Part shown: piece by piece, positions 18,337-49,716 of the stretch
Layout: every line of letters begins with the position of its first letter
Numbering within the stretch: the stretch's first letter is position 1
DNA from: an uncultured Flavobacteriaceae bacterium
GTDB taxonomy: Bacteria; Bacteroidota; Bacteroidia; Flavobacteriales; Flavobacteriaceae
DNA: 64,000 bases
Direction: 5' to 3'
Assembly (NCBI GenBank): GCA_937923515.1
Contig: CALDUF010000029.1
Span: 1 to 64,000 of the forward strand
Notes under the pieces: model-generated
The model's database searches: none
Seen by the model: only the letters and a program-made list of their open reading frames with translations
What the model was told of the DNA's origin: nothing
Made by a program: the position numbers and the translations under genes

Positions 18337-19776
18337 TTATTGCTTAATTAACTTAATACTTTGTAAGCCAGATAAACTCTTAACTTGCGCAAAGTATAAG
18401 CCAGATTTTAAACTAGAGCCATCAATTGTAGCTTCTTTGCTATTAGGAGAAAGTGATAATATTTCTTTTCCTAAAATATCAATTACTCTTACGCTTTCAA
18501 TTTGAGTTTCGCCTCTTAGACTCCAACTATCTTGAGTAGGATTAGGGAATGCTTTAAATGATATTTTTGAAAAATCATCATTACTCAACACCACATTATT
18601 ATGAAGATATACGTTATCTAAATATGCAGTTCCAATAAGTCCCGCAGTGGTAATTAAAAACTCAGTAATATTAGCTCTTTCAAAAGGTGCGTTATCGTCA
18701 TTTGGATCATTATCAAATAAAGACTCTATTTCTACGTCGTAAGACACCCAAGTTTGGTTTTGTGTACCATCTCCAGGTAAAGCAATTGTACCTTCAATTG
18801 CATTAGTTTCTCCAGCACTTTCTGCATGGTTAGAAAGTTTAGGGTTAAACACTTGTCCATCAACAAACCCGTCGGCTACCCAAAAATCCATGTGTATGTG
18901 CGTCATTCCGCTTGCATCTACTACAGAACCTAAACTAGAACCCATAAATGTACCCAAGGTTAATGCTAAAACATTATTGCCTGCTATTTCTTCTTCTACA
19001 AAATTTGTAGGATCATCCCATGGCACATTATTTAAACCTATTGCGGTACCGTAAGCATCACCATAAATTGAAATAACATCAGCTGCAGCTCTACTTGGTG
19101 GCGTTGGTGGTGCTGAAGATGGAGGAACAGCACAAGGGGCACAATCAGGACCACCACAGTCTACACCTGTTTCGTTACCATTCATCATACCATCCGAACA
19201 CGTAGGGCCAGAAGCAACAGCAGCAACTGCTCTAATATTATCAAGATAAACAACAGCATCTACTGGAGGATTAAACCATGAACCAGGAGGCGTTGTAGCA
19301 TCCCAATTTGGAAAAACAGCTATTAATGGATAAACACCATTAGCATTCTCTGAGGTGTTATCTCTAGGGGTTGTAAAAGACACTATGGTTTCAACCCATA
19401 CAGAACCACCAGGATGTTGCACATCAACTGCAGATGGCGGAGCACCATCTATTCCGCTATCTACTTTTACAAGAATATCTATAGGAGTATCAGAATAGAT
19501 ATCCATAGTAATAGTCTTGTCTGTTGTTAAATCTACATTGGTTGTAAAGTTAACGTTTGCACCTTGCCAAGGATCACCAGCGCCAGCAACAACTTCTAGT
19601 CTTGCTACTTGTCCTCTAGAGCCTCCTGCTTCAGGATCAGCAACTACTGAGGATGAAGCTAATCCACTAAAGCCACCGTCTAGTGCAGAACCTGATTCAA
19701 AATCTTCAATTAGCACTTGTTGTCCGTATCCTAGAGATACAGCTAAAAAGGCTAATACTAATGTAATTTTTTTCAT
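18337..19776 (-). CDS. Secreted glycan-binding-type protein with T9SS type A C-terminal sorting domain
   Basis: Signal peptide; Cys motif CSDGMMNGNETGVDCGGPDCAPC; C-terminus KAFPNPTQDSW...GLYFAQVKSLSGLQSIKLIKQ; one domain resembles part of 35352-36785. Confidence 0.75.
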   Translation of the reverse strand: MKKITLVLAFLAVSLGYGQQVLIEDFESGSALDGGFSGLASSSVVADPEAGGSRGQVARLEVVAGAGDPWQGANVNFTTNVDLTTDKTITMDIYSDTPIDILVKVDSGIDGAPPSAVDVQHPGGSVWVETIVSFTTPRDNTSENANGVYPLIAVFPNWDATTPPGSWFNPPVDAVVYLDNIRAVAAVASGPTCSDGMMNGNETGVDCGGPDCAPCAVPPSSAPPTPPSRAAADVISIYGDAYGTAIGLNNVPWDDPTNFVEEEIAGNNVLALTLGTFMGSSLGSVVDASGMTHIHMDFWVADGFVDGQVFNPKLSNHAESAGETNAIEGTIALPGDGTQNQTWVSYDVEIESLFDNDPNDDNAPFERANITEFLITTAGLIGTAYLDNVYLHNNVVLSNDDFSKISFKAFPNPTQDSWSLRGETQIESVRVIDILGKEILSLSPNSKEATIDGSSLKSGLYFAQVKSLSGLQSIKLIKQ

Positions 19777-19892
19777 TGTTAAATAGTTTTAGTTGTTATG
19801 GGTAATTATAATTGCTCATAATTTTTTTAACCCCTAATTAATACATTCGTAAATTTAACACCAAAATATTGCCTTATCTTTAAAAAACACCG

Positions 19893-19909
19893 CTACAAAA
19901 AACATACAT
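19893..19909 (-). promoter_or_regulatory. 17-bp element shared with the susC promoter region
   Basis: CTACAAAAAACATACAT, identical to 46740-46756; lies 117-133 nt upstream of the 19776 ATG. Confidence 0.5.
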
Positions 19910-20029: not shown

Positions 20030-20070
20030 ATGTATGGGTAATGTTGTGGTAGAAAAACCACCACAACATT
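20030..20070. promoter_or_regulatory. Candidate PUL operator: two tandem 11-bp repeats plus an inverted copy
   Basis: ATGTATGGGTA (20030-20040), ATGTTGTGGTA (20041-20051), inverted ACCACAACAT (20060-20069); the same pair occurs at 46859-46880. Confidence 0.55.
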
Positions 20071-20138
20071 AGTGTTAAGGTATTTTAAATAAAAAGAATT
20101 AGATTAAACAGGTAATAATGCACTTAAAACACTAGGTA

Positions 20139-23100
20139 TCATCCTTTTTTATAGACACTTACAGTAGCATCATTGTTTGTTACCAACCAAAACTCTAAGT
20201 TGTTTACCTTTAATGCTTGTATATCACGAGCGTCAGAAGGGATGTAAAACCCGCTTTTATTGGCTGAAATTGGTTTTAGGTTGTTGATATCGCCAGAACC
20301 TTTTAATAGAAGGCCATATCCAGCATCGTATCTTACTGTTTCCACCTCAACACCATAATGATTACCTAGTAAAAGTACATCCTTAAATCCATCGTTATCA
20401 AAGTCTGAAACTATAGAAGATTTTACGGGACTTATTTGTGCCTCTATTGGTAAAGGTTTTTTAATTAGTTTACCATTATCGTTTATTAAAATAATGCTTT
20501 CGAAGTTGCTAATTTCATAAACAATAGCCTTTTCAAGTTTATTCTCTGGTAAAATATCTAATAGTTTGGATGAAGCAAAACTATGATAGTCTTTAAATTT
20601 TTCGGCAACATACGGCATTTGTTGACTTGTACACTCTCGTCCTCTTACCGGCACGTAATCGTCTTTATAAAACTTTGCGAGCACAATATCATTAACGCCA
20701 TTATTATCAAAATCGTTGGCGTAAACTTTAAAAGGATGTGCTTCTGATGCTTTAAATTTATTATTCTTACCTAGGTTTCCTATAATATAGTCGTCATCAC
20801 CATCGTTATCAATGTCGCTTGCAGTAATTGACCACCATAAGCCTCTAGAATTACTTAATCCATAAGCCTCAGTTTTGTTAACATAGACACCATCATTATT
20901 TTGAAGTATGGTAATATTCATCCATTCACCAACAACAATCATGTCGTTATCACCATCGTTATCAATATCTGAAAATACAGCATCTGTTACCATGCCTATG
21001 CCTTTTAAAGCTGATGCGGATTGGGTGTTTAATTTTTGAAAAACGCCATTGGTATTGATTAAAAAATAACTGTCTCCTGGATAAGGATATTTACCAGAAA
21101 TAAGTCTGGTACCAACAAATAAATCTAAATCGCCATCGCCATCAATATCTGAAGCTTTTACGCATTGTGTACTTTCATAACTTTTGGGCAATGCATTTAT
21201 AGATTTAGTATAGTTGCCTTTGCCATCATTTATGTACAACCTATCGTTAAGCAAGCTATTACCTTGTTTATACTCGTTACCACCACTGGTAACGTATAAA
21301 TCTTTGTCGCCATCATTATCTGCATCAAAAAAAAGTGCTTCTAGATCTTCTGAAGCTTTATCTCTTTCCCAAGGTTGGGATGTACTTGGTATAAACTTTC
21401 CAGACTGTTGCTGTATATATAAAATACCCGATTGTTTTGCAGCACCGCCTAAAAAGACATCATCTAACCCATCATTATTAACATCAGCTACTGCTGAAAA
21501 TGGTCCGTTTGTGGACAACCTGTGTGGTAGTAAGATTTCTTCAGCAAAATCATCATAATTATTTTCTTCATGCTTGTAATTTATTCCTAGTGAAGCGGCA
21601 TTAACTTGTGCAAATACCTTAGAAGCTATAACGTTTTTAGCTTTAACCGCTTTTGCAGATGAATAGTTTGCCTTTATAGTTTGGTTTGCAGCAATATCAG
21701 CATAAGAGTTCATCTTACCATCTGGCCAGATAACTTCTACTTTGTCAACCTTAGTCTGCGTTCCTAAACCAAAAAATAAACCAGGTTCTACAGAAGATAG
21801 AAACCCTCTGGTTAGGCTGTTTTCAACAAGTTGTACCTTATCACCATAATAAATTTTCGCTTTGGCACCTATACCAAATTTGTTTAGTTTATCACCATTA
21901 AGCTTCACCTTTAAAAAATTACCAGAGGCATTATTTTTATACACAAAAGCCTTGGCATCCATATTATTGGTTACAATATCCAGATCGCCATCATTATCTA
22001 AATCGCCATACGCCATTCCGTTAGAAAAACTTGGCGTATCAAAACCCCATTCTTTTGCAACTTTATCAAATTTTAAATTGCCATTATTTTTAAAAATATA
22101 ATTGCTTATCGGTTTACTAGGTGTGTTCTTACTATATTCAAATAACTCATCTACAGTAGTATTAGCATCTATTCCTCTTATAAAATTGTTATAATCGTTA
22201 TTTTCTACATCCTTTTTAATGCCATTTGTTACTAAAATGTCTTTAAAGCCATCATTATCCATATCAGCAATTAAACTTGCCCATGTCCAATCCGTATTTG
22301 AAAGACCAGATACGTTTGCAATATCAGAAAAACCATAACCTGTATTTACTTGCAAAGTGTTGGTCATGTATTGATAACTTTTGGTTTTTTCTACCAAGTT
22401 GTGAAAGGTTTCAGAGCTCATAGAAGCCATATTCATTTTAGAACGGTAATGATCATCTGGCGTCATATCTGTAGTGAAAAGATCTACTAAACCATCATTA
22501 TTAATATCGCCAGCGTCTGAACCCATACTATACTGAGACATGTGTTTAATATAATCTGTAGTGACATTATTAAAGGTACCATTGCCGTTGTTGTAGTATA
22601 AAATATCTGGCTCATTATAATCATTAGACACGTACATATCAACAAACCCATCATTATTAAAATCTGAAGTGGTAATGCTTAAACCATAAGCTAATTCTTT
22701 AGAAATATTTGCATTATCAGACACATCAACAAATCGTCCTCCTTCATTTCTATACAATCTGTCTCTATAATATTTATAGGTGCTTTGCGGTATTTTATTT
22801 GTTAAAAACAACTTGTGATCTGGTGGTTGATTTAATTGATACATATCTAAATCGCCATCGTTATCCATATCGAAAAAAGCTGCTTGCGTAGAGAACCCAA
22901 CATCAGCTAACCCATATTTAACTGCCGATTCTGTAAAGGTTAAATCTTGATTGTTTATGTATAGTAAGTTTTTTCTATCCTCAAGTTTTAAAGAGTTGCC
23001 ATTTCTGCTTACGTAAATATCTAAATAACCATCACCGTTAACATCGGCCATAGTAACGCCCCAAGTCCACCCTGAATGAATAGCCGTTTTAGATGTTTTA

Positions 23101-23429
23101 GTAATATCTTCAAAATTAAAATTTCCTTTATTGAGGTATAATTTATCTGAAACTTGATTGCCTCCAAAAAATATATCTGCAAGACCATCATTATTTATAT
23201 CTCCAATGGCAACGCCCGCACCAATATAAATATGCCTAAAATAATAATGGTTTAAGTACGTAGACTCAGTAATTTTGTTGTTAAAGTCTATACCTGTTTG
23301 TTCAGAAGGTAGTAATTCAAAACCTGCAACTAAATTTCCGGTTTCTAAAGGCCTAACAGGTGTATTGCAAGACATTATTGTGAAAATGATTAGTGCAAAT
23401 ATTAATAGAAAGCGATTGTCCTTTTTCAT
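20139..23429 (-). CDS. VCBS/FG-GAP repeat lipoprotein with ASPIC/UnbV-like domain (CRTAC1-like)
   Basis: Lipoprotein signal (IFTIMSCNTP), many DxNxDGxxD repeats (e.g. GDINNDGLADIFFGG), and GIGAKAKIYYGDKVQLVENSLTRGFLSSVEPGLFFGLG. Confidence 0.85.
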   Translation of the reverse strand: MKKDNRFLLIFALIIFTIMSCNTPVRPLETGNLVAGFELLPSEQTGIDFNNKITESTYLNHYYFRHIYIGAGVAIGDINNDGLADIFFGGNQVSDKLYLNKGNFNFEDITKTSKTAIHSGWTWGVTMADVNGDGYLDIYVSRNGNSLKLEDRKNLLYINNQDLTFTESAVKYGLADVGFSTQAAFFDMDNDGDLDMYQLNQPPDHKLFLTNKIPQSTYKYYRDRLYRNEGGRFVDVSDNANISKELAYGLSITTSDFNNDGFVDMYVSNDYNEPDILYYNNGNGTFNNVTTDYIKHMSQYSMGSDAGDINNDGLVDLFTTDMTPDDHYRSKMNMASMSSETFHNLVEKTKSYQYMTNTLQVNTGYGFSDIANVSGLSNTDWTWASLIADMDNDGFKDILVTNGIKKDVENNDYNNFIRGIDANTTVDELFEYSKNTPSKPISNYIFKNNGNLKFDKVAKEWGFDTPSFSNGMAYGDLDNDGDLDIVTNNMDAKAFVYKNNASGNFLKVKLNGDKLNKFGIGAKAKIYYGDKVQLVENSLTRGFLSSVEPGLFFGLGTQTKVDKVEVIWPDGKMNSYADIAANQTIKANYSSAKAVKAKNVIASKVFAQVNAASLGINYKHEENNYDDFAEEILLPHRLSTNGPFSAVADVNNDGLDDVFLGGAAKQSGILYIQQQSGKFIPSTSQPWERDKASEDLEALFFDADNDGDKDLYVTSGGNEYKQGNSLLNDRLYINDGKGNYTKSINALPKSYESTQCVKASDIDGDGDLDLFVGTRLISGKYPYPGDSYFLINTNGVFQKLNTQSASALKGIGMVTDAVFSDIDNDGDNDMIVVGEWMNITILQNNDGVYVNKTEAYGLSNSRGLWWSITASDIDNDGDDDYIIGNLGKNNKFKASEAHPFKVYANDFDNNGVNDIVLAKFYKDDYVPVRGRECTSQQMPYVAEKFKDYHSFASSKLLDILPENKLEKAIVYEISNFESIILINDNGKLIKKPLPIEAQISPVKSSIVSDFDNDGFKDVLLLGNHYGVEVETVRYDAGYGLLLKGSGDINNLKPISANKSGFYIPSDARDIQALKVNNLEFWLVTNNDATVSVYKKG

Positions 23430-24498: not shown

Positions 24499-26844
24499 TT
24501 ATACGTATTTAAGTTTTTCATGTTTATCCCAAATTCCCCAACGTTGGCCTACATCACCCTCGTGGTGTACTTTCCATGATTCGTCAAAAGATGAGAAATA
24601 AAACATCTGAATATTATTATCATTTGCCCAAGTATTCGCTTTTATGTAATAAGCTATTGCATTTTCTGTAGATGGTATAGCATCTAATTTAGTTTCACCT
24701 TTATTAGGCCAACCCGTTTCAGTAATAATTACTGGTTTTCCATCTGCGATATTAGTGGTTAATTCATGCATTTTTTTAAGATACATCTCTGCGTGTTTCA
24801 CGTTATAACCTTCCCAAAATGGATAACAGTTTATTAGAATAACATCACAGGCTTCAACAAGTGCGGGTCTATCAATAAATTGATAATAGGCATCTACGTA
24901 ACCTACAGGAATATTTGGTATGGCTTTTTTAACGCGTTTGATGTAACTTAAAATCTCTCTCTCAGTTAATTCATTCCTCAAAAGTGTTTCGTTACCTACA
25001 ACAGCTATATTTACAACACCAGTGTTAGCTAATTTAATTAGTGCTGCGAGCTCTTTTTCATTGTTTTCCTTATCCTTACCAATCCAAGCACCCACCATAG
25101 TTTTAATTCCTGATGCATGTGCTACTTTAGGTATATGTTCATTACCATCTGTACATGAAAACGAACGTACCCACTTTGCAAACGGACGAATTATTTGCAT
25201 GCGTTCGTTAATTTGTGCTTCTGATAGTTGATCCCCTATATTCTGTCCTTCTTTGTAAGGACTAAAACATAAACCATGCATGCCATTGTTTAGGGTGTCT
25301 CTAAACGCGTTTTTTAATTCTTGTATTGATAGAGAAGATAAATCAACATCAAACGTCTCATCCAAATCTGCTTGTGTTAACGCTAAAAGTCTGTCTTTTT
25401 GGTTGTAATACACTGGTGTTTTCGATGAAGCATCAGAGTTTTTTCTATCATCAAGTTCTGCGCGAATTTCGTTGGCACGTGCTTCTGATACTGAATAATT
25501 CCACATCACTACAATAGCGATAACAGTTCCAATAATAGGAACAGCAGAGAAAAATAACCTTAGCCCTGTAATAGCGTCTTCAGTTTGTACTGCACCAGGT
25601 GTTGAATCAAAACCAACATAGGTAAGTATAAGGCCGCTAAGCCCTCCTGCTATGGCAAAACCAAATTTTACCATCCACCAGTAAATGGCTCCAAAAATAC
25701 CTTCTCTTCGTTTTCCTGTATTTAACTCATCTAAATCAATAACGTCGGCTGTCATAGACATCATTAACACAAATAAACTACCTATACCAAAAGAGAAAAA
25801 CGGCAATGCAAAAATAAACATGTAGGGTTTGCCAGGAACAAACAAAAACCAGAGCATTACATAACCAATTATTGAAATGCCTTGCGAGATAAGAAAAGCA
25901 TTCTTTTTCTCCATTTTTTTAGACATCCACGCTACCGTAGGAATTACTGCAAATGTTGTTATTAAAGCACCTAAACTTCCAAATAATGTAGGCCAAATTC
26001 CTGCTGCACCAGCATCGCCACTAAATAAATAGTATACTACGATGAAAAATGAAAACGCTGCAACTGTATTAAACGCATTAAAAATAAAAAATGTTGCTAT
26101 ACATAATTTTCTAAACGGCGGCGATTTAAAGGCTTCAACAAAACCGTCAAAAATCTCCATAATACTACCGCCAATATTGCCAATGGTAAGTGGTGCATAA
26201 TCTTCATTTAAAGTAGATTTGCTTTTAATAAATATAGCAGGTATCATAGCCAATATCATGCAACCTATACCCACCCAAATAGCTAAAGATCGTGTAGCGA
26301 CATCGGCCGATTCAAACCAACCTTTATCATACATAATTACCCAAAACCATGGTGCAATAACCCATGCCCACTGCCCAATCCATTGGGCTATTGCCATAAT
26401 GTTTGTGCGTTCGTGAAAATCTTCACTCATTTCATAACCCATGGCTACATAGGGTACGCTAAAAATGGTTAGGCCTAAATAAAATGCAAAAGACCATAAC
26501 ATGAAATACGTAAAGTTATAATCTACACCGCTATCGCGATACAGTTGCCACATAATTACAAACGTAACACCCATAATTAGCGCACCAATAAACACATATT
26601 GCCGGCGGCGTCCCCATCTAGATTTTGTATTGTCTGAAATAAACCCCATTATTGGGTCTGTAAAAGAATCGAATATTCGTGGTAGAAAGTAAATTAAACT
26701 CCATTGCCAACCCTCAAAACCAAGATCTTTTACCAATACCACCATGAATATGCCCAATGCAGCGGGAAACATTTGGTTTGCTAGCATCCCTAATCCAAAT
26801 GCAACTTTTTGACCAAATGGTACTTTACTTGTGGTGGTAGACAT
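24499..26844 (-). CDS. MFS (GPH-type) sugar transporter fused to C-terminal GH17 domain
   Basis: Residues ~1-470 polytopic (GLGMLANQMFPAALGIFMVVLVKDLGFEGW..., DPIMGFISDNTKSRWGRRRQYVFIGA); residues ~490-781 closely match the adjacent GH17 protein, with VVGNETLL and ITETGWPNKGE. Confidence 0.9.
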   Translation of the reverse strand: MSTTTSKVPFGQKVAFGLGMLANQMFPAALGIFMVVLVKDLGFEGWQWSLIYFLPRIFDSFTDPIMGFISDNTKSRWGRRRQYVFIGALIMGVTFVIMWQLYRDSGVDYNFTYFMLWSFAFYLGLTIFSVPYVAMGYEMSEDFHERTNIMAIAQWIGQWAWVIAPWFWVIMYDKGWFESADVATRSLAIWVGIGCMILAMIPAIFIKSKSTLNEDYAPLTIGNIGGSIMEIFDGFVEAFKSPPFRKLCIATFFIFNAFNTVAAFSFFIVVYYLFSGDAGAAGIWPTLFGSLGALITTFAVIPTVAWMSKKMEKKNAFLISQGISIIGYVMLWFLFVPGKPYMFIFALPFFSFGIGSLFVLMMSMTADVIDLDELNTGKRREGIFGAIYWWMVKFGFAIAGGLSGLILTYVGFDSTPGAVQTEDAITGLRLFFSAVPIIGTVIAIVVMWNYSVSEARANEIRAELDDRKNSDASSKTPVYYNQKDRLLALTQADLDETFDVDLSSLSIQELKNAFRDTLNNGMHGLCFSPYKEGQNIGDQLSEAQINERMQIIRPFAKWVRSFSCTDGNEHIPKVAHASGIKTMVGAWIGKDKENNEKELAALIKLANTGVVNIAVVGNETLLRNELTEREILSYIKRVKKAIPNIPVGYVDAYYQFIDRPALVEACDVILINCYPFWEGYNVKHAEMYLKKMHELTTNIADGKPVIITETGWPNKGETKLDAIPSTENAIAYYIKANTWANDNNIQMFYFSSFDESWKVHHEGDVGQRWGIWDKHEKLKYV

Positions 26845-43568: not shown

Positions 43569-46500
43569 TTAAAAATTTAAATTAACACCTAATAAGTATG
43601 TGGCTGCAACAGGATAAAATCCTTTATCGATACCTCCGCCAATAGGCGCGCCGTTTGTTGCTGACGGATCGTAGCCATTATAATCTGTAAGGGTAAATAC
43701 ATTGTTACCCGTTACGTAAATTCTAAGTTTATCAATACCTGTTTCTTTTAGTGCATTTGGATTTACAGTATATCCTAACTGAATGTTTTGTAATCGTAAA
43801 AATGATGCATCTTCTACGACAAAATCTGAAAACAGGTCTGTATTTATATTTGCTCCTGCTACTGCTCTTGGCACGAAATTGCTAGTACCACTACCTTGCC
43901 AACGCTCTAACACATAAGTGCCTCTATTTGCAAATAAATCTTTACGTTCATAATCTCTTACCATATCATTACCAACAGATGCAAATGCGTTTGCACTAAA
44001 ATCGATGTTTTTATAAGCGAACCCTATATTAAAACCAAAGGTAAAATCTGGAATGGCATCGCCAATATTAGTTCTATCATCGTCTGTAATTTGTCCATCG
44101 CCATTGGTATCTACAAATCTTAAGTCGCCTGGAGCAATATCACCCACAGTGCTGTATATACCAGTTGGAGACGCAGCGTTTAAAACATCTATTTCTTGTT
44201 GTGTTTGGTAAAGGCCATTTGTTTGGTAGCCATGAAAATACCCTAGTGGTAAACCCACTACCATTCTTGAAATATCATTTTGACTGATACCTACCCCAAA
44301 TTCACCACCTGGTGGTACGTCTCTGCCATTTAATGAGGTTACTTCGTTTTCAAGATAGGTCATATTAAAGCTCATATTGAATTCGAAATCGTCTGAAAAA
44401 TTATCATTATACGCTATTAAAAATTCAACACCTTTATTTTCGACTGTTCCCGCATTAATAAAAGGAGAGGCTGCTCCTGGTGCACCTACACCTAATACAC
44501 CAGGTGCTTGGGGTTGTATTAAAAGGTCTTTGGTTTGTTTTCTAAATACATCGGCAGTTATGTTAAGTTTATTATTAAACAACCTTGCATCTATACCAAT
44601 GTTACCTGTTTCTTGTTCTTCCCATTTCAGGTTTGGATTTCCAATTGTACCAGCACCAACACCATTTAATAAATCGTCTTCAATTGTTGTATTTCCTGAA
44701 TCTATAGTTGCTTCACCGTTTAGTCTTGTAAGAAATGCAAAGTCACTTATTCTATCATTACCAATAATACCATAACTCGCTCTAAATTTGAGGGAATTAA
44801 CCCATCCTCCTGTATTAAAGAAATCTTCCTCAGAAATATTCCATCCTATGGAACCAGAAGGGAAATAACCAACATTATTATTATTTAATGTTGAAAATCT
44901 AGAAGAGACATCTCTACGAATTACACCAGATAGTAAGTACTTATCTTTATAGTTATATTGTAATCTGGCAAACGTGGAAGATAAACGAGAATCAAACTGA
45001 TCGCCTCCTAACGCTTTTGAGGCATCATTAATTCTATCAGAAAGCACGCCTTCAACTCTATCTCCTAGCCATCCATCAACAAATGCATCTGAAACTGAGT
45101 TACTCCCATTGCGTAACTGTTGACCGCTTTCACCATAAAATTGACCTCTAGTTCTAAATGTAGACATACCTAATAATGCAGTAATATTATGTACTTCATT
45201 AAATGTATTGGTGTAATTAATAAAATTATCCCAAGTGTAGTCTGTAAACAAATCACTAAAATCTTGAACTTCATTTATAGCTCTGTTGTTTGATTTTCCA
45301 TTACCAAAATCTACTACGGGAAAAAACACATCGTTTAAAACATTGGCGTAATTAATTTGAAATTTAGAGCTCACTGTAAAGTGTTCTAAAAATGTATAAT
45401 CTAAGCCTAATGTTCCACTATATCTATCAATTCTCGTCATATTATGCGTGTTGGCAATTTGCGCCAAAGGATTAATAATTTCAATCTGAGAAATATCATT
45501 AGCTAAAGAAAAATCGCCGTTTTCATCTCGCAATGGTAAATTAGGGTTTATATTCACCGCACTATATAACACAGAACCAATACTACCTTCAGGTAAATTT
45601 TGTTTTGTTGAATTTGTTAATAAGGCGGTTGCCGATAATTTCAAGTTATCCAAAATATCATATTGATAGCCCAAACGTGCTGTAAACCTCTCAAAATTAT
45701 TTTTACTTGCACCAACAATACCATCTTGGTCTAAATAAGACATCCCAAATGTGTAGGCTGATTTTTTTGTACCACCACTTCCGCTAAAGTTTACATTTGA
45801 AATTGCTGCTGTTTGAAACACTTCATCCTGCCAATCGGTACCTTCTTGAGGAAATACGAAAAAACGTGTTTCGTCAGCCGCATCATTTACATAAATACCG
45901 AAGTTTAACGGATCTAATAAATCTATTTTTTTACTCGTAGTTTGAAAACCTGTGTAAGCATCGACTTGAAACTTTAATTCAGAATTTTTTCTGCCTGTTT
46001 TAGTAGTAATCAAAATAACACCGTTGGCACCACGAACACCATAAATACCTGCTGTAGCATCCTTTAGTACGTTTATACTTTTGATATCATTTGGATTAAT
46101 TACAGAAAGGTCTACAATAACATTGCCATCTACAAGAATTAAAGGGCTGTTGTCGCCATTAGTAGTTATACCACGAATTCTAATATTAGCGCCTGCACCA
46201 GGAGAACCTGATGTTGATGTTACGTTAACACCCGCAATTTGCCCTTGTAATGCCTGCTCTACGCGTTGCGGATTTAGTTTTTCAATAGCTTCAGAAGTTA
46301 CTACAGAAACAGCACCTGTTACTTCTTTTTTTCTTTGAACACCATACCCCACAACAACAACCTCATCAAGTGTTGCCAAATCTTCCTCTAATTGAACAGA
46401 AATTGCGTTGGCATTGGTTACCACAACATCTTTAGTAATATACCCTATAAAACTAAACGTTAGCGTTGTGCCTAATTTAATATCTGTTAACGAAAAATTG

Positions 46501-46667
46501 CCATCAAAATCTGTAACAGTACCTTTTGATGTGTTTTTCACAATAACATTAACACCTGGAATAGGTAAGCCTGAATTGTCCAGTACAGTGCCCTTAATAT
46601 CTAAATTTTGTGCGCCAATGTAGCCGACAAAAAAAAGCATTAACCATTTAATTAATGTGTGTCTCAT
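43569..46667 (-). CDS. susC: SusC/RagA family TonB-linked outer membrane protein
   Basis: Carboxypeptidase-D-like N-terminus DIKGTVLDNSGLPIPGVNVIVKNTSKGTVTDFDGNFSL, EEVVVVGYGVQRKKEVTGAVSVV, and plug motifs IRIRGITTNGDNSPLILVDG. Confidence 0.97.
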   Translation of the reverse strand: MRHTLIKWLMLFFVGYIGAQNLDIKGTVLDNSGLPIPGVNVIVKNTSKGTVTDFDGNFSLTDIKLGTTLTFSFIGYITKDVVVTNANAISVQLEEDLATLDEVVVVGYGVQRKKEVTGAVSVVTSEAIEKLNPQRVEQALQGQIAGVNVTSTSGSPGAGANIRIRGITTNGDNSPLILVDGNVIVDLSVINPNDIKSINVLKDATAGIYGVRGANGVILITTKTGRKNSELKFQVDAYTGFQTTSKKIDLLDPLNFGIYVNDAADETRFFVFPQEGTDWQDEVFQTAAISNVNFSGSGGTKKSAYTFGMSYLDQDGIVGASKNNFERFTARLGYQYDILDNLKLSATALLTNSTKQNLPEGSIGSVLYSAVNINPNLPLRDENGDFSLANDISQIEIINPLAQIANTHNMTRIDRYSGTLGLDYTFLEHFTVSSKFQINYANVLNDVFFPVVDFGNGKSNNRAINEVQDFSDLFTDYTWDNFINYTNTFNEVHNITALLGMSTFRTRGQFYGESGQQLRNGSNSVSDAFVDGWLGDRVEGVLSDRINDASKALGGDQFDSRLSSTFARLQYNYKDKYLLSGVIRRDVSSRFSTLNNNNVGYFPSGSIGWNISEEDFFNTGGWVNSLKFRASYGIIGNDRISDFAFLTRLNGEATIDSGNTTIEDDLLNGVGAGTIGNPNLKWEEQETGNIGIDARLFNNKLNITADVFRKQTKDLLIQPQAPGVLGVGAPGAASPFINAGTVENKGVEFLIAYNDNFSDDFEFNMSFNMTYLENEVTSLNGRDVPPGGEFGVGISQNDISRMVVGLPLGYFHGYQTNGLYQTQQEIDVLNAASPTGIYSTVGDIAPGDLRFVDTNGDGQITDDDRTNIGDAIPDFTFGFNIGFAYKNIDFSANAFASVGNDMVRDYERKDLFANRGTYVLERWQGSGTSNFVPRAVAGANINTDLFSDFVVEDASFLRLQNIQLGYTVNPNALKETGIDKLRIYVTGNNVFTLTDYNGYDPSATNGAPIGGGIDKGFYPVAATYLLGVNLNF

Positions 46668-46739
46668 ATTTTAGTTAGTTTAGAGTTTTAGTCTTTATAA
46701 AACTACTGGAATTGTTTTAGGAATTCTCATTTTTTGCCT

Positions 46740-46756
46740 CTACAAAAAACATACAT
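46740..46756 (-). promoter_or_regulatory. 17-bp element shared with the 19776 promoter region
   Basis: CTACAAAAAACATACAT, identical at 19893-19909; lies 73-89 nt upstream of the susC ATG. Confidence 0.5.
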
Positions 46757-46858: not shown

Positions 46859-46880
46859 ATGTTGTGGTAATGTATAGGTA
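46859..46880. promoter_or_regulatory. Candidate PUL operator: tandem 11-bp repeats
   Basis: ATGTTGTGGTA (46859-46869) directly followed by ATGTATAGGTA (46870-46880). Confidence 0.55.
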
Positions 46881-46902
46881 AAACAAAAGGGTGTTGTGTT
46901 TT

Positions 46903-49716
46903 TTAGATCTCTAAAATATAGTCTGTAAGGCTAGATTCGTGGGGTAAATCCATTTTCTTTCTTAACCTGTAGCGTTTTACTTCTACACTTCTAGGAGAGA
47001 TATTTAAAAGTGGAGCAATTTCTTTTGAAGATAGATTAAGGCGCAAATACGCGCATAACCTAAGATCGTTTGATGTTAGTGCTGGATGTAAACTTTTTAT
47101 CTTCTTTAAAAAATCTTTATCTGCATTATTAAATGCTTCTTGAAATAAATTCCAATCATCATTATTGTTTAAATTTCTGTCTATAATTTTTATAACCTTC
47201 TTTAAATTTTTAGTATCGTTAGTTGCTTCTAATTCACTTTTTAAACTACTTAAAAATTCATTTTTCTTAATAAGATTCATCGTAGAAATTCCAAGCTCTC
47301 TATTTTTGTTTTCAATATCTTCTCGCAACTTATCGTTTCTAAAGCGCATTAATTGTTGTTTATTTTCTAACTCTTTAAGTTCAAACTCACGCGTTGTTTT
47401 TTGTAATAATTGGTCTTGTTGTTTTTTGTAATACCGCTTGTAAACATAATGCATAAACAATGAAAATAATACAACGCCTAATATATATAGTGCAATGGCA
47501 AGATTAGATAAAAACCAAGGTCTCTCTATATTGAACTCGTATGACGCGCTGTTTAGTGTTAACTGATTGCCCACTCTACCACGCACTAAAAAGGTATAAG
47601 AGCCAGACGGGAGGTTTTCAAAAAGCACGCTACCATTTGAGGTCCAATCGCTCCAATCGTCATGCCTTCCATTAAGTTTGTATTGGTATTCCGGTTGTTG
47701 TGTTTTTAAAAACTCAGTGATACTGTATGAAAATATAATATTGTTTTCGTTGTTCTCAAATTCTGGAGTTTCATTAAGTTTAACTAGCCTAGTGGTGCTA
47801 TTGTCTTTTAATTTTCTAACAGAAACTTGATCTATATTTATTTCGTGATCTTCTTTTTCTGCTTTCTCTAAGTCTAGTATAATATATCCAGATTTAGATC
47901 CTAATAAAAATTGTTGCCCTTTAATGTGAGTAACACTTTCAAAACCAATAACGTCTTTTCTAATATTAGCAGGAAACGGTACGGTATCAATCTTCATTTC
48001 ACCACTTAGTTTTGCTGCAGTTAAATAATTAATACCACTTGAAGAAAACCCCCATAATGTAGCTGTTTTGGGTTCTGATACTAATTTTGCTGAAGTAAAT
48101 TGTTTTAGGTCTAGCAACTGGCTTCTTAAGCTATCCTTATCAAACGTGTTTGTTTTTGTATTATACTTAAAAACACCTTGGTTGTTAGCATACAATATAG
48201 CATCCTCGTGCTTTACAAGATTAGATTTTTGACTCTTTTTTAAAGTGCTATCTATTTTAAAGTCTATAACCTTGGTATATTCTGTATCTAACTGTAGTCT
48301 GTATACACCTTTATATTCGTGACTTATGGCCAATTCATAATCACTTAAAAATTCAAAATACCTACTTGATATATCAAAACCCTTTATTTTATTTCGTAAT
48401 TGCCAAATTGAACCAACCTTATGCAATACATAAAGCCCACTATAATTACCTTGTAATAATACATCTTTAAAACCTTTAATTCGTTTTACTTGCCATGTGC
48501 CTTGAATGTTAGCAACCTTTATTGCTTTTTCCTCTTCAATTATAAATGTTCCTGAATTATGGCCACAAAACAAGGTACCGTCTAGCACTTGCAAAAACCA
48601 AACTTGCCCCTGCGTACCTTCAATAAATTTATAACTTTCTTCGCCTCCAACAGGCTTATAAAACAGCCCTTGATTGGTGCCTAAATATAACATGTTATTG
48701 TATACTACAGAAGTATACAAACTACCTATCATACCTGTTTTGTCATGGTAAATGTTGTAGGGTGATATCATGTTTATACAGTTGATACCATTGTCTAACC
48801 CCAACCATAAATTATTATCAATATCCTCGTGTATTGACAGTACGGTATTATTACTTAATCCGTTGGTTTGTGCTATATGAAAATCTAGTTCTCCAAGCTC
48901 ATTTAAATGAATAATACCTTTAGAAATTGTGCCTAAAGCAAAACTGTTATCCTTTAACCTTTTTGCACTAAAAACACTCACTTTATTTAATAGCGCATTA
49001 GCGGAAATGTTCCATGGTGTTATATTTTGATCATTAAACACGTAAAATCCATTATCTTGCGTAAGCATTAACAAATTGTCGTTTTGCTTAAAAATATTAA
49101 CGATCAAGTTGTCTTTAAACACTTGTTTATCTGAAACCAAAATGGCTTTACCTGCTTTGATTTTATAGAGCCCTTTATTTAAAATTTGAAAATAAAAATC
49201 GCCCTCAACCTTAAAAAGCTTGGGTATTTTTTCATTAAAATCAATTGTGGTATAAGCTTTAGAAGATGTGTTGTAAATGTGTATTCTATCTAGTGATTGA
49301 AATAAAATAATATTTTCAAAATGTAGAATATTCCAAAATTCTTCGTCTTCAAGAAATGCTACATGTAACGCTTTGGATAGTGATGTATAATTTAAAACGC
49401 CAAAATCATCTTTTTCCCAATACCCAAAATCGTGATAACTACCTGTATAAATAAGATCGTCAATAAAGGTTACAGCACGAATTATTGTTTCGTTTGGGGA
49501 AGGATACAAGGTCCATTTTGCACCATTATATTCTAACAACCCCTTATTATTCGCCACATATATATAGCGATTATTTGCTTGCGTTATTGACCAATTTTGT
49601 GATTCGCCTCCGTAATCTGGAGGCGAGAATATATTAATTGGCGGACGCTCTTGGGCAGAAAGACAAAGACAGGATAAAATTACCTGAATAAAAAAAATGT
49701 GCTTAATATATTTCAA
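46903..49716 (-). CDS. Membrane-spanning one-component regulator: periplasmic beta-propeller + Y_Y_Y domain, TM, coiled coil, LuxR-type HTH
   Basis: Signal peptide; Y_Y_Y-like YQYKLNGRHDDWSDWTSNGSVLFENLPSGSYTFLVRG; TM ALYILGVVLFSLFMHYVY; HTH LRLNLSSKEIAPLLNISPRSVEVKRYRLRKKM; no kinase motifs seen. Confidence 0.88.
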   Translation of the reverse strand: MKYIKHIFFIQVILSCLCLSAQERPPINIFSPPDYGGESQNWSITQANNRYIYVANNKGLLEYNGAKWTLYPSPNETIIRAVTFIDDLIYTGSYHDFGYWEKDDFGVLNYTSLSKALHVAFLEDEEFWNILHFENIILFQSLDRIHIYNTSSKAYTTIDFNEKIPKLFKVEGDFYFQILNKGLYKIKAGKAILVSDKQVFKDNLIVNIFKQNDNLLMLTQDNGFYVFNDQNITPWNISANALLNKVSVFSAKRLKDNSFALGTISKGIIHLNELGELDFHIAQTNGLSNNTVLSIHEDIDNNLWLGLDNGINCINMISPYNIYHDKTGMIGSLYTSVVYNNMLYLGTNQGLFYKPVGGEESYKFIEGTQGQVWFLQVLDGTLFCGHNSGTFIIEEEKAIKVANIQGTWQVKRIKGFKDVLLQGNYSGLYVLHKVGSIWQLRNKIKGFDISSRYFEFLSDYELAISHEYKGVYRLQLDTEYTKVIDFKIDSTLKKSQKSNLVKHEDAILYANNQGVFKYNTKTNTFDKDSLRSQLLDLKQFTSAKLVSEPKTATLWGFSSSGINYLTAAKLSGEMKIDTVPFPANIRKDVIGFESVTHIKGQQFLLGSKSGYIILDLEKAEKEDHEINIDQVSVRKLKDNSTTRLVKLNETPEFENNENNIIFSYSITEFLKTQQPEYQYKLNGRHDDWSDWTSNGSVLFENLPSGSYTFLVRGRVGNQLTLNSASYEFNIERPWFLSNLAIALYILGVVLFSLFMHYVYKRYYKKQQDQLLQKTTREFELKELENKQQLMRFRNDKLREDIENKNRELGISTMNLIKKNEFLSSLKSELEATNDTKNLKKVIKIIDRNLNNNDDWNLFQEAFNNADKDFLKKIKSLHPALTSNDLRLCAYLRLNLSSKEIAPLLNISPRSVEVKRYRLRKKMDLPHESSLTDYILEI

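Follow-up and report, generated by a model that had tools for sequence, protein, structure and literature searches.

SusR is one of the PUL regulators that were discovered earliest, and a 2019 paper still called its mechanism undefined (PMC6874557). In Bacteroides, the operators of SusR-like regulators were predicted by comparative genomics as two direct-repeat sites, 67 or 77 bp apart, and those of HTCS regulators are direct repeats at an average distance of 21 bp, which is two helical turns (both PMC3878776). The AraC and LacI operators of E. coli likewise consist of two sites, for which looping is proven and whose spacing matters in vivo, with a periodicity of close to 11 bp (PMC1762422). 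We found no earlier description of the operator presented here in the open-access literature, and the predicted Bacteroides SusR motif is the closest known description.

The window studied here, a 64,000-nucleotide stretch of DNA from an uncultured Flavobacteriaceae bacterium, holds a laminarin-type PUL with a SusR-like regulator, SusC, SusD, GH16, several GH17, GH30, an MFS transporter and GH149, the last being a 1,3-beta-glucan phosphorylase. Its module shares with the Bacteroides operators the regulator family and the location of the sites near PUL operons, and two conserved sites with a long spacer lie upstream of the regulated operons. It differs in orientation, in unit structure and in having several spacing classes: the Bacteroides sites are described as direct, whereas here the two stand in opposite orientation and are each built from 11-bp units in tandem, and in place of 67 or 77 bp the classes run from 103 to 147 bp (152/163 in f41, a different family of the same class), with site starts 101-175 bp apart over all loci. 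Likeness to the HTCS operators lies in PUL control through direct repeats and in the 21-bp distance, found here between the pair and a third unit. The SusR-like regulator also has an HTCS-related sensor region, but HTCS proteins have an AraC-type HTH, and a distant second array is not known for them. The regulators AraC and LacI are soluble and belong to other protein families; looping, proven there, we infer here from the spacing.

Comparison lends strong support to the view that the SusR-like regulator has an operator of two sites here. The repeats noticed in the window are probably its distal half, from which the adjacent membrane-anchored regulator would activate transcription through helical-phase-dependent looping.

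Two promoters with the same anatomy

The preliminary description of this DNA had reported two abutting tandem pairs, and both are present where it placed them: ATGTATGGGTA and ATGTTGTGGTA are contiguous at 20030-20051, and ATGTTGTGGTA and ATGTATAGGTA at 46859-46880 (forward strand). The genes downstream of the two sites, 18337-19776 and susC (43569-46667), are on the - strand, and in gene direction the 11-bp unit is TACCNNNACAT; the sequence TACCTAT may resemble NarL heptamers. The sequence ATGTNNNGGTA occurs 8 times within the window (1.99 expected). The exact tandem ATGTNNNGGTAATGTNNNGGTA is found in 2 places of the 2.71-Mb assembly, both in the laminarin-type PUL of the window, and its reversed control pattern has 0 matches in the whole assembly. 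When 3 mismatches are allowed, a scan of the whole assembly gives 40 tandem matches vs 44 for the control, which is no enrichment, and the information therefore lies in near-exact matches alone. The many unrelated genomic occurrences that the preliminary description had named as grounds for abandoning the site are absent from the genome.

That description had recognised a probable operator site, but only its distal half, and had missed an inverted second element about 125 bp downstream and the phased spacing between the two. This proximal element, RTGTATNTTTTTTGTWGNGGT, looks like the same tandem pair inverted. Read on the opposite strand, it is alike at 16 of 21 positions to the tandem pair with its units swapped (shuffle p 3e-4), and one of its units is without the ACC core. 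With up to 2 mismatches it occurs in its own genome at 2 places only, 46736-46756 and 19889-19909, and these elements and the two tandem pairs belong to the same two promoters (Table 1). One drives susC and the other the T9SS gene, and no other promoter in the window bears the module. The TAnnTTT box that follows resembles the flavobacterial sigma-A -7 box, TAnnTTTG (PMC9723704).

Table 1. Positions in the window of the two module-bearing promoters and associated genes
Feature	Position	Strand	Description
SusR-like regulator	46903..49716	-	sensor region, Y_Y_Y, hydrophobic segment, coiled region, GerE-type HTH
Third, weaker unit	46891..46901	-	AAACACAACAC, 21 bp upstream of pair, beside regulator stop codon
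Distal array, susC promoter	46859..46880	-	two 11-bp units, TACCTATACAT and TACCACAACAT
Proximal element, susC promoter	46736..46756	-	ATGTATGTTTTTTGTAGAGGC, readable as inverted unit pair
Predicted -7 box, susC promoter	46698..46705	-	TAGTTTTA, TAnnTTT class, 51 bp past proximal start
susC	43569..46667	-	first gene downstream of module
Hairpin from inverted copy of one unit	20039..20071	-	local to the window's T9SS-gene promoter, outside conserved module
Distal array, T9SS-gene promoter	20030..20051	-	TACCACAACAT and TACCCATACAT, unit order swapped
Proximal element, T9SS-gene promoter	19889..19909	-	ATGTATGTTTTTTGTAGCGGT
Predicted -7 box, T9SS-gene promoter	19850..19857	-	TAAATTTA, 52 bp past proximal start
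T9SS-sorted protein	18337..19776	-	domain related to laminarin-binding CBM X584

The regulator encoded at 46903-49716 has the C-terminal HTH, the membrane/sensor N-terminus and the gene position beside susC/susD of a SusR-like protein. Its sensor region is related to the HTCS sensors 3v9f and 4a2l, and the 200 residues at its C-terminus give a match to the BT3442 family model, far below the cut-off of that model. The second SusR-like gene of the same genome (C25:456-2060) has no adjacent susC, and no module was found with it.

Conservation and phased spacing of the module

Regulator orthologues were gathered from 397 genomes of the same family, and the stretch past the regulator stop codon was compared. 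Two blocks stand out there: the distal array, from the stop codon on, and the proximal element, with the TAnnTTT box 51 bp past its start. The proximal element is present at 113 of 130 regulator loci, 112 of which also have the upstream tandem 11-bp pair, and a pair with no more than 1 mismatch is present in 96 of the 105 actual sequences vs 0.14% of first-order Markov resamplings. A second, named set of 80 named genomes plus the window, partly overlapping with the family collection, includes Hyunsoonleella, Algibacter, Formosa, Tenacibaculum, Polaribacter, Winogradskyella, Gelidibacter, Lutibacter and others; both elements are found in 76 of its 81 loci, with the -7 box 50-52 bp past the proximal start in 70 of those 76. 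Column profiles of 147 loci bring out three features unused in selection: the -7 box, a run of T ahead of the proximal element and, 21 bp upstream of the pair, a third half-site. Conservation in orthologous loci, the lack of which was to have counted against the site, is therefore strong at the PUL promoters concerned. A combined two-element search pattern proved too strict, recovering 4 of 8 genomes.

The distal array mostly begins at the regulator stop codon, with the third unit often 21 bp upstream, and a protein bound at this place might also influence the transcription that runs out of the regulator gene. In both families, the main one and f41, the array is mostly at the stop or within about 22 bp of it (46881-46905; L223-L302, L326-L374). 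In relatives the module also stands upstream of a second PUL operon and of the T9SS-protein gene, and in Gaetbulibacter two module-bearing operons are on a different contig from the regulator, which points to action in trans.

The start-to-start spacing of distal and proximal sites falls into classes about 11 bp apart, at about 103, 114, 125, 136 and 147 bp (101-105, 114-115, 124-127, 135-138 and 146-147 in the named set; 113-116, 121-128, 134-140 and 145-151 in the family collection). In the named set the class means step by 10.9 bp and the Rayleigh peak is at 11.05 bp (bootstrap 10.7-11.5), a peak that jittered controls reach in 0 of 5000 trials (p about 2e-4); six Lutibacter-type loci at 171-175 bp, which fit the classes poorly, were omitted from this estimate and from the 70-locus tree. 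Since LacR loops in vivo fit 10.95-11.60 bp per turn (PMC1762422), a step of about 11 bp is as contact across a loop would give. On the regulator trees, the spacing class has changed at least 7 times in 30 loci and at least 13 times in 70 loci. The step equals the unit length, and the quantisation could in part reflect gain and loss of units; this explanation is weakened because the close relatives L053/L059 and L046/L047 differ by single 11-bp spacer gaps that fall outside the array. In Algibacter lectus (L231) the array is 164 bp from the stop codon, yet 127 bp from the proximal element.

Spacing by whole helical turns has two exceptions, the loci at 171-175 bp and the window's own T9SS-gene promoter. 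The latter, at 142 bp, misses the susC grid by roughly half a turn, so looping is unsupported at that one promoter, and another promoter at 142 bp is likewise off the grid. At susC promoters, the spacing data lend good support to a helical-phase-dependent contact.

Association with the regulator and competing explanations

The proximal motif is found in 123 of the 250 regulator-bearing genomes vs 9 of the 147 that lack the regulator (counts taken by hand from listings), and its reversed pattern gives about 11 chance matches over all 397 genomes. Regulator loci without the module are L171, L183, L184, L186 and L193. A paralogue group (L201, L203, L204) with the HTH sequence IKSVETKRYRLRKKL (VETKRYRL) has distal units TACCACGACAT and a proximal element ATGTTCGTTTTTTATCG, with an identical CGA change in both halves. 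In f41 the HTH is RGVEIRRYRLRKKL, the distal block YACTACATCATTACCTCTCA is at the regulator stop, and a proximal near-inverse, TGATGTANTAATGTAGAGKT, precedes susC-like genes; the distance between the two blocks is 152-154 or 161-165 bp in 30 of 31 rows (two rows being duplicates). The blocks of f41 differ and the layout is the same, so sequence changes while geometry is kept. Among distant class members outside f41 the module was not recognised by eye, and single-position covariation between the halves in the main family was not significant. The proposal that the repeats are an operator for the LuxR-type regulator of the PUL is supported by this co-occurrence and by the joint change of both halves with the HTH in paralogues.

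We infer binding by the regulator, looping, activation rather than repression, and a laminarin signal as the ligand. Every 11-bp unit, TACCNNNACAT, would be contacted by one GerE-type HTH. The distal array would be made up of two or three direct-repeat units, and the proximal site of an inverted pair with a T-tract, immediately ahead of the promoter. Regulators on both sites would touch, looping out roughly 100-150 bp, and would activate transcription from the TAnnTTT promoter once the periplasmic sensor binds laminarin products. Judged from sequence comparison, marine bacteria very probably use the module to turn on laminarin-use genes. Many marine bacteria of this large group feed on a major pool of algal carbon, and the module would give their laminarin regulon an operator that is precise and can be tested. 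From it follow predictions of regulon members, promoter position and the effects of spacer mutations, and it offers a sequence signature by which laminarin-responsive operons can be found outside the main PUL, Gaetbulibacter being an example. With chances that we consider evenly balanced, membrane-anchored SusR-like regulators may switch on PULs across Bacteroidia by tethering and by looping between two inverted arrays of 11-bp units, with whole turns held by selection and specificity diverging while geometry is kept.

Conservation and co-occurrence alone need no loop, and a SusR-like operator could also work with its distal array and proximal element bound separately and acting independently, the array for example concentrating the regulator near the membrane or limiting read-through from the regulator gene. 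The usual start of the array at the stop codon agrees with this, as do the window's T9SS-gene promoter and the other promoter at 142 bp, both off the grid. We nevertheless consider it unlikely, as the whole-turn spacing classes with their many independent changes, and the 152/163 step in the other family, f41, imply that the halves sense each other's rotational position. That the operator serves a different protein, such as another PUL regulator or a global factor, and is a chance neighbour of the SusR-like gene seems quite improbable, as genomes that lack the regulator have the motif no more often than background and both halves change with the HTH, in paralogues and in f41.

The inverted copy beside the T9SS-gene array, described earlier as an 11-bp perfect hairpin, is real, but its perfect arms are 12 bp (20039-20050/20060-20071). 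As - strand RNA it forms 14 pairs with -19.6 kcal/mol (z -5.1), a strong stem about 70 nt past the stop of the gene ending at 20139, and it could be argued that this RNA is the key feature, as a terminator or 3'-end stabiliser of a long PUL transcript ending at 20139. We hold this to be very improbable: neither a U-tract nor a terminator match was found at 20039-20071, as the earlier view of it as an unlikely simple terminator had it, the susC site has no hairpin, and relatives keep the tandem units with no counterpart of the inverted copy found beside the array in their homologous loci. On the same grounds an intrinsic terminator was rejected as a general explanation, and the idea that the inverted copy is part of the operator is not supported. 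The most fitting view of the hairpin is that of a local addition next to the operator, which may act on the 3' end of the long transcript of the PUL or may be harmless.

Further observations on the PUL and on related elements

Residues 34-181 of the protein encoded at 18337-19776 match CBM X584 (8qx6) with a sequence-profile E of 1.6e-14; a fold search agrees, and the structure model is only moderate (pLDDT 67). The product is probably a secreted laminarin-binding protein, and it carries a Cys-rich linker with the consensus TCSDGIQNGDETGVDCGG.

In four genomes that have no regulator, a near-identical element, GTGTATAGTTTTTGTAGYGGT, is common to all (G063:C24:166901, G074:C53:122421, G087:C1:2300186 and G285:C29:278976), and is perhaps the operator of a related regulator. 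At the end of the PUL, 20139-23429 encodes a large FG-GAP/UnbV_ASPIC protein. Within the PUL, 24499-26844 is a single frame with an MFS sugar transporter in residues 16-453 and, towards the C-terminus, a GH17 match in residues 705-780, a transporter-hydrolase fusion of a kind unusual in a laminarin PUL.
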